58,287 bases of DNA from Acidobacteriota bacterium (lineage in GTDB: Bacteria; Acidobacteriota; Terriglobia; Terriglobales; Acidobacteriaceae). Below, one piece after another: positions 33,479 to 34,657 of this stretch. The stretch's first letter is position 1; each line of letters opens with the position of its first letter. Both the position numbers and the translations under genes were made by a program. A model generated the notes under the pieces. That model did not search any database. It saw only the letters and a program-made list of their open reading frames with translations, and was not told the DNA's origin. Location of the stretch: positions 1-58,287 of the forward strand of contig JAGWRX010000202.1 in assembly GCA_028876395.1 (NCBI GenBank), in the 5' to 3' direction.

Positions 33479-34446
33479 CAGAAATAGCCCTCGCGCTTCT
33501 TCATCTCCATCGAACCATCCTGGTCGTGATCGATCACGCGATTGGCGCGCTCGGAGTTTCGCACCGCCATCAGTTCCGCGATGATCTTCGGAACCGTGTC
33601 CGCATCGGAGCGGATTGCGCCGGTGCACGGGCTGCAACCCAGCGAGCGCAGACGGCACTTGATCCACTGTTCCTCGCCCGGCAAACCCTGCACAAAAGGC
33701 TGCTCGACCGGGATGAGGCTGTCGCCGCGCACCAGCATGCGGCGCTCCTTGGCCAGATAGAGCGGCACGATGGGAATCTTTTCGAGATGGATATAGTGCC
33801 AGATGTCCAGCTCCGTCCAGTTGGAGAGCGGAAACACGCGAATGCTCTCTCGCTGGCTGATGCGCGCATTGAACAGGTTCCACAACTCGGGCCGCTGGTT
33901 CTTCGGGTCCCACTGCCCGGCGCTGTCGCGGAAGGAGAAGATGCGCTCCTTGGCGCGCGATTTTTCCTCGTCGCGTCGCGCGCCGCCGAAGGCCGCGTCA
34001 AAGCCGTGCGCGCGCAGCCCGTCCAGCAGGGCCTGCGTCTTCAGCAGGCCGCAGCAGCGCTGCGTGCCCAGCCGCACAGGGTTCGCGCCGTCGGCCAGCG
34101 CTTCTTCATTGCGCCACACGATCAGCTTGACCCCCAGCTCGCTCGTATAGCGATCACGGAATTCCAGCATCTCCTTGAACTTGTAGCCCGTGTCGACGTG
34201 CAGCAGGGGAAACGGAATCGGCGCGGGATAGAAGGCCTTCTGCGCCAGGCGCAGCATCACCGAGGAGTCCTTGCCGATGGAATAAAGCATCACCGGGTTC
34301 TGAAACTCCGCCACCACTTCGCGCAGGATGTGAATGCTTTCTGCCTCAAGCAGCTGGATGTGGTTGAGCCGGTCCACCGCCGTCGCGCGCTTCCCGTCCT
34401 GGTGCGGAAGCACCGCTGACCTGTCCGCGATCGCTGTCGCTGTCAT
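33478..34446 (-). CDS. cysD: Sulfate adenylyltransferase small subunit CysD
   Basis: PP-loop subunit of ATP sulfurylase that adenylates sulfate. 322 aa. Motifs: LYSIGKDSSVMLRLAQKAF, LHVDTGYKFKEM, GGARRDEEKSRAKER, FPLSNWTELDIWHYI and RSLGCSPCTGAI, ending MEMKKREGYF as usual. The ATG at 34446 is preceded by a GGAGA ribosome site. It is the first enzyme gene of the operon and lies directly behind the leader ORF and terminator described next. Confidence 0.96.
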   Translation of the reverse strand: MTATAIADRSAVLPHQDGKRATAVDRLNHIQLLEAESIHILREVVAEFQNPVMLYSIGKDSSVMLRLAQKAFYPAPIPFPLLHVDTGYKFKEMLEFRDRYTSELGVKLIVWRNEEALADGANPVRLGTQRCCGLLKTQALLDGLRAHGFDAAFGGARRDEEKSRAKERIFSFRDSAGQWDPKNQRPELWNLFNARISQRESIRVFPLSNWTELDIWHYIHLEKIPIVPLYLAKERRMLVRGDSLIPVEQPFVQGLPGEEQWIKCRLRSLGCSPCTGAIRSDADTVPKIIAELMAVRNSERANRVIDHDQDGSMEMKKREGYF

Positions 34447-34480
34447 GCAAACTCTCCGTTTCGTTTTGTGCTGAAAATAG

Positions 34481-34514
34481 AAAACCCGCGGCAGCAGAGA
34501 ATCTGCGGCGCGGG
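34481..34514 (-). terminator. Intrinsic-terminator-like hairpin in the cysD leader
   Basis: On the minus strand, outer arms CCCGCG/CGCGGG and inner arms GCAGA/TCTGC with a 3-nt loop, followed at once by TTTTCTATTTT. It lies between the leader ORF (stop at 34553) and the cysD start (34446), so it can only control the operon. Confidence 0.75.
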
Positions 34515-34552
34515 CTTAGGGGGAAATCGTACTGAGTCTTACTTAGGCTGGT

Positions 34553-34621
34553 TTACCCCACAGTCCGGCGCGGCGCACAACAACATGCGCAACAGATCGC
34601 CGAAGTGAGGCACAGACTCAT
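34553..34621 (-). CDS. Cysteine-rich leader peptide (22 aa) of the cys operon
   Basis: Minus-strand ATG at 34621, TAA at 34553-34555. The peptide begins MSLCLTSAICCACCC and ends in a basic segment. Six of 22 codons are Cys (positions 4, 10, 11, 13, 14, 15), five of them within six codons. The ATG falls about 8 nt after the -10 element with no ribosome site, so the transcript is probably leaderless. Such Cys-rich short ORFs in front of sulfur genes act as cysteine-responsive attenuators in other bacteria, such as mycobacteria. Low charged cysteinyl-tRNA would stall the ribosome and alter folding of the downstream terminator. The function here is inference; the ORF, promoter and hairpin are seen. 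Confidence 0.8.
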   Translation of the reverse strand: MSLCLTSAICCACCCAPRRTVG

Positions 34622-34628
34622 ATAGCTC

Positions 34629-34657
34629 ACTATAACGTCGCTTCCCCTCCAGGTCAA
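34629..34657 (-). promoter_or_regulatory. Promoter of the cys operon leader
   Basis: Minus strand: TTGACC (34657-34652), 17-bp spacer, TATAGT (34634-34629). Transcription is expected to begin at about 34622, at or next to the leader-peptide ATG. Confidence 0.7.

Follow-up and report, generated by a model that had tools for sequence, protein, structure and literature searches.

Trp-type attenuators of Proteobacteria and Actinobacteria consist of a leader ORF enriched in codons for the amino acid that the pathway makes, a protector pairing (1:2), an antiterminator (2:3) and a terminator (3:4). In Streptomyces lividans, the leader peptides TrpL1 and LeuL2 are leaderless and have terminators, and the available text of that study assigns none to Cys (PMC8079986); the combination of a leaderless start with a terminator is therefore not new in itself. 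Cys leaders have been described upstream of the cys operons of Mycobacterium and P. acnes and of B. longum cbs, those of Mycobacterium having no conserved terminators according to the accessible part of the report (PMC1262725). Leaderless polycysteine sORFs of M. smegmatis (Canestrari 2020) are cited in PMC9094748, PMC9031893 and PMC13236596. In Rhodobacterales, the Cys uORF uORFC-8-2 has tandem Cys codons within a stem, followed by an intrinsic terminator, before cysS (accessible text of PMC8632094). As far as their accessible text goes, PMC1262725 and PMC8632094 bear out the remark in the preliminary description of our locus that Cys-rich short ORFs occur in mycobacteria and alpha-proteobacteria.

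Leader genes have also been predicted in Acidobacteria, in a study whose main text, in its accessible part, does not mention cysteine (PMC4833913). Another study predicted attenuators in Acidobacteria, almost none with an associated function, and in the part available described leader-peptide systems as known only in Proteobacteria and Actinobacteria, to which Firmicutes were then added (PMC2965389). Our literature search on Acidobacteria combined with leader peptide, attenuator or cysD, which left most subscription papers outside its reach, found no report. A Cys attenuator is of a kind already known; the phylum is one for which we found no report, and the scope within it is wide.

The window, the whole 58,287-nt stretch of Acidobacteriota DNA that was analysed, contains a cysDNH unit preceded by a Cys-rich leader (Table 1). 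Like the trp-type attenuators, this leader has a product-codon ORF, a protector, an antiterminator and a terminator, but its sensor is Cys and its phylum is Acidobacteriota. It resembles the mycobacterial polycysteine sORFs, as these are described, in being a short ORF with a run of Cys codons, predicted to be leaderless, before sulfur genes. It shares with uORFC-8-2 the Cys codons in a stem and the intrinsic terminator. However, uORFC-8-2 precedes the gene for Cys-tRNA synthetase in a single order of alphaproteobacteria, whereas the gene downstream in the window is cysD, and the leaders described here belong to sulfate assimilation and sulfite reduction.

Table 1. Features of the cysDNH leader and of the genes behind it, in 5′ to 3′ order on the minus strand (positions in the window).
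Feature	Position	Strand	Basis
−35 element TTGACC	34652..34657	−	direct reading; promoter-like site scan
−10 element TATAGT	34629..34634	−	direct reading; 7 nt between its end and ATG
Cys-rich leader ORF, 22 codons + TAA, MSLCLTSAICCACCCAPRRTVG	34553..34621	−	direct reading; 12 homologues aligned
Segment 1, predicted partner of segment 2 on ribosome-free RNA	34598..34612	−	folds, duplex energies, pair counts
Sensor stretch UGU UGC GCA UGU UGU UGU (Cys codons 10, 11, 13, 14, 15)	34577..34594	−	core conserved in 12-leader alignment
Hairpin over Cys codons, GCGCAUG/UGUGCGC	34573..34590	−	all cells (100 percent) paired; two-sided changes at 2 pairs
Segment 2, CCGCGCCGGACUGUGGGG, near ORF end	34556..34573	−	folds, duplex energies
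Segment 3, CCCC immediately 5′ of terminator + terminator 5′ arm	34508..34522	−	duplex energies, nascent-RNA folds
Terminator hairpin, −22.0 kcal/mol	34481..34517	−	energy-based detection, fold
U-rich tract UUUUCUAUUUU	34474..34484	−	direct reading
GGAGAG, likely cysD ribosome-binding site	34452..34457	−	direct reading, 182-nt fold
cysD, sulfate adenylyltransferase small subunit	33478..34446	−	TIGR02039, 445 bits (cut-off 396.6)
cysN, sulfate adenylyltransferase large subunit	31808..33478	−	TIGR02034, 565.5 bits (cut-off 336.1)
cysH-type APS/PAPS reductase	31144..31830	−	NF002537, 237.4 bits (cut-off 154)
TauE/SafE-type exporter	30363..31127	−	PF01925
FAD/NAD-binding (flavin) reductase	29463..30260	−	PF00175, PF00970

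Translation of cysD starts at ATG 34446 on the minus strand, the start of cysN overlaps the cysD stop, and the flavin reductase gene is probably the last of the unit. The preliminary description had reported a near-consensus promoter (TTGACC, 17 bp, TATAGT), a 22-codon ORF with six Cys codons, five of them within six codons, and a GC-rich hairpin, taken as a terminator, between this ORF and cysD. Direct reading of the minus strand confirmed the promoter and the ORF, whose Cys codons are numbers 4, 10, 11, 13, 14 and 15. The hairpin was recovered as well, at 34517-34481, accompanied by TTTTCTATTTT at 34484-34474. The distance from TATAGT to ATG 34621 had been put at about 8 nt and measures 7 nt. 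TTGACC (34657-34652) and TATAGT (34634-34629) with their 17-nt spacer match the consensus at 10 of 12 positions and are the sole promoter-like site in 34300-34900 (shuffles: mean 0.0). From this promoter geometry the 5′ end of the transcript is predicted at, or 1-2 nt from, AUG 34621, which would make the transcript leaderless. A divergent ThuA-domain gene (34664-35878, plus strand) has its intergenic region in common with the leader promoter.

Of 60 relatives, 44 had a CysD match, in one case a weak one; a search of 299 genomes from the class, with E capped at 1e-60, gave a match in 173. The 133 upstream regions that were scored (loci L001-L046 and L078-L164) were drawn from these CysD hits and are a subset of all hits. 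In 80 of them there was a short ORF with three or more Cys within seven codons, against 5.1 in shuffles and 6 on the reverse strand, which places Cys clusters about 15-fold above shuffles. That count scores L016 as a miss, while its true upstream letters hold a class B core (see below), and keeps L038 (a stop in the cysD frame) and L046 (a doubtful leader without a −10 box). It supersedes an earlier cluster scan (82/133; 4-18 in 20 shuffles, 14 on the reverse strand), which missed the window owing to an in-frame upstream cluster. When the ORF also had to have a TAnnnT −10-like box at a distance of 5-11 nt upstream of its start, 67 of the 133 remained (shuffles 0.2). Without the box, none of the other amino acids exceeded 2.2-fold at the 133 loci, except Met (1 locus against 0.2); with it, there were moderate rises over shuffles for Ser (16 against 4.7), Arg (15 against 5.2) and Val (6 against 1.3). 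The shuffles, the reverse strand and the 19 other amino acids rule out a chance origin of the Cys clusters.

By group, the Cys-cluster ORF occurred at 25 of 39 loci of the genus, 45 of 49 in the rest of the family, 3 of 7 in f2 and 7 of 11 in f7, and at none of the cysD loci of f6 (0/25), f4 (0/1) and f9 (0/1). Eight more genus loci, L016 among them, have class B leaders, in which fewer Cys are clustered; this brings the genus to 33/39, and at five of the six remaining loci the genome's other cysD copy has a leader. The peptides vary between genera while the Cys clusters recur, as in MRISCQLRCCCPFNVEQACQLTR and MVVFVNRACCCCRMLPCPCPRCCR. The preliminary description had proposed comparing cysD leaders for Cys codons that persist while their surroundings drift, and had named a lack of conserved Cys codons or hairpin in relatives as grounds for abandoning the idea. 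The codons do persist in drifting surroundings, both they and the hairpin are conserved, and the idea survived.

Two leader designs stand before cysD in the window's genus. In class A, to which the window's leader belongs, there is a CCACCC-like cluster, PRR stands close to the end, and a terminator follows. The core pattern of this class was found in 11 of 80 genus genomes, one copy each (reversed-pattern control: 0), and in nine contigs of an 84,980-species collection, one of them named Occallatibacter savannae and the rest bearing the labels Acidobacteria, Acidobacteriota or Acidobacteriaceae. The window's genus group is that of O. savannae, the genus name resting on the link to strain AB23 (L064), which carries a class A leader. 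A −35-like hexamer (at least 4/6) and a gap of 6-8 nt between the −10 element and the start are present in 9/9 class A cysD leaders. In class B the peptides are CC[C/R]LSNIFDGC-like and a conserved hairpin lies immediately 3′ of the Cys codons; the class comprises 22 loci (L012, L014, L030 and 19 more), one of them from another genus, and in most GACGGGUG is complementary to a downstream CACCCG. An energy-based detector found terminators in 9/9 class A cysD leaders (shuffles 0.2), 3/15 of class B (0.2) and 21/56 of the others (4.0); a stricter detector, which tolerated few mismatches and excluded bulges, gave 0/9 for class A. Most leaders outside class A have no clear terminator, so there is no single output mode for the whole group. 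At L048/L061, a class A Cys leader with a GTG start and a terminator precedes a TonB-receptor-like gene, possibly for uptake of sulfur compounds; no CysD match was found within the L048 locus.

The class A alignment consisted of 12 leaders: nine upstream of CysD matches, L051 and L052 (preceding CysD at 87 and 92 percent identity) and L048. Segment 1 (5′ of the Cys cluster), segment 2, segment 3 and the terminator are common to all 12, and CCGCGCCGG of segment 2 is unchanged in 12/12. Three mutually exclusive RNA pairings are kept in these homologous leaders, with two-sided compensatory changes. In the window the 2:3 antiterminator duplex amounts to −20.7 kcal/mol. Since the aligned leaders are mutually related, the permutation and shuffle figures for them are not probabilities: 0 of 20000 partner permutations equalled the cognate 1:2 duplex energies, 2 of 20000 equalled those of segment 2 with segment 3 including the terminator arm, and 707 of 20000 those of segment 2 with the spacer alone, the weaker signal. 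Pair counting, which used the window's own fold and so favours that structure, gave 10 pairs with two-sided changes; the covariation score was 0.213 against 0.158 in shuffles (0/500 as high) and 0.059-0.102 in slid versions. The number of further pair types in the 12 leaders was not above shuffles (122/500 as high). The terminator helix is 87 percent paired across the alignment.

In folds of the nascent RNA with a ribosome at the first cluster Cys, the terminator arm was held upstream with P 0.79-0.98 in 12/12 leaders; with a ribosome at the stop codon, P was 0.00-0.56. GC-rich shuffled spacers also held the arm upstream, with a mean P of 0.57 against 0.89 observed, and no individual leader stood out in this test (2-18/100 shuffles as high), so the nascent-folding evidence is supportive, not strong. 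When the full-length RNA was folded with the ribosome stalled at the first Cys, equilibrium favoured the terminator in 9/12 leaders, including the window (P 0.99), where the antiterminator reached −30.1 kcal/mol and the terminator −32.0 kcal/mol, a difference of 1.9 kcal/mol. Read-through would therefore require that the antiterminator form first. The fold for a competing antiterminator that the preliminary description had suggested thus yielded a conserved one, marginal at equilibrium.

We interpret the Cys frame with the promoter-like and terminator-like sequences before cysD as a ribosome-mediated transcription attenuator sensing charged tRNA-Cys, with a probability of roughly 0.86. A product-codon-rich ORF, an intrinsic terminator and mutually exclusive antiterminator and protector pairings are all present in the window. 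The attenuator proposed in the preliminary description is supported, as far as the sequence goes, by its parts, their conservation and complementarity, and the specificity for Cys; from these we infer where the transcript starts, that the leader is translated, that ribosomes stall on it, and that the RNA switches in response to cysteine. RNA synthesis would begin at the AUG itself, so that the leader would be translated on emerging. When cysteine is plentiful, the ribosome would translate the Cys cluster without stalling, reach the stop codon and lie over segment 2; with segment 2 covered, the terminator would form and cysDNH would be off. When tRNA-Cys is uncharged, the ribosome would stall in the sensor stretch, melt the 1:2 stem and free segment 2, which could then pair with segment 3, the terminator's 5′ arm included, and transcription would continue into cysD. 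If the leader is not translated, segment 2 would be held by segment 1 and the terminator would form.

Some of the same observations could be read differently. For mycobacterial cys leaders, action through translation or Rho has been proposed, and the window leader might work in this way, with the hairpin in a minor role. The mostly terminator-less class B leaders of the same genus would fit, as would the 182-nt fold, where UUUCC (34522-34526), just 5′ of the terminator, is base-paired to GGAGA (34453-34457) in the ribosome-binding site of cysD; the mycobacterial Cys leaders themselves, without conserved terminators in the accessible part of PMC1262725, are termed translation attenuation in that of PMC13236596. 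The window shares the run of Cys codons with the mycobacterial type, but where the accessible descriptions of that type speak of translation attenuation or possibly Rho, it has an intrinsic terminator and a conserved antiterminator. A strong hairpin with a U tract in every class A cysD leader, a helix that stays paired over the alignment and the use of the terminator arm by the antiterminator all make translation or Rho an unlikely main route. It is possible that, in the modelled fold, the pairing of the ribosome-binding site leaves room for an added effect on cysD translation.

Cys-rich leader peptides of copper operons have been proposed to sense metal or redox state. A nascent peptide of this sort, in which Cys would matter as residues and not as codons, seems to us less likely still. 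In one of the 12 aligned class A leaders (L079), Arg and Tyr replace the final two Cys of the sensor stretch, which such a sensor could accommodate; the peptides of other genera, however, share little beyond variably spaced Cys clusters, and the genes downstream serve sulfate activation and sulfite reduction, not metals. Protein regulators of cys genes are common, and one could act here in addition to the attenuator. That a repressor or an undescribed riboswitch controls cysDNH, with an incidental Cys ORF, is very improbable given the exclusion of chance clusters and the results with Rfam 15 (riboswitches and T-boxes included), which gave no match in the window leader at the gathering threshold or at E up to 10. 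Only tRNAs were matched in an Rfam scan of 30 loci, and a known structured RNA family was rejected as the identity of the leader in the absence of a covariance-model match.

A second gene of the same pathway also supports the attenuator reading. In the window's genome, sulfite reductase (PF01077; G000:C151, L174) is preceded by the Cys leader MQGRPCCRCCTPLRAHR, which begins at reverse-complement position 915, and by a terminator hairpin with a U tract. A Cys leader stands before sulfite reductase in 16/16 genomes examined, including G018 (MFELTCCRCQMPLRAHG) and G032 (MASKTCCRFCMPLMRAQATWV), both of which also have other members of the family without a leader. A hairpin lies 5′ of a U-rich tract in 14/14 folded sulfite reductase leaders; the antiterminator is less clear there: for a ribosome at the stop codon, P reached 0.81. 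As a negative control, the region upstream of trpE had a Cys cluster in 0/16 of the same genomes. At two of these 16 loci (L204, L206), a short frame with clustered Trp codons, which may lie inside the gene, was seen upstream of the trpE match. For cysK, a 5-codon ORF, MxRCR, was found in 14/14 genus genomes searched (14/30 cysKM loci). The ORF directly follows a −10-like box and, at L221 (G000:C177), precedes the cysK match by 187 nt; in some of the MxRCR ORFs an overlapping frame also has Cys codons.

For a class of Acidobacteriota, we lean towards a picture in which leaderless, cysteine-counting leaders run sulfur assimilation, with cysD, sulfite reductase and perhaps cysK each having its own. 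The peptides would be rebuilt in each lineage, keeping only the Cys codons, and the output device would be swapped even between congeneric species at the same gene. For leaders of a major soil phylum, a function in cysteine supply can now be proposed from sequence. The two leader designs at the same gene within one genus, which includes the named strain O. savannae AB23 (L064), make the turnover of leader peptides and of their expression platforms directly testable.
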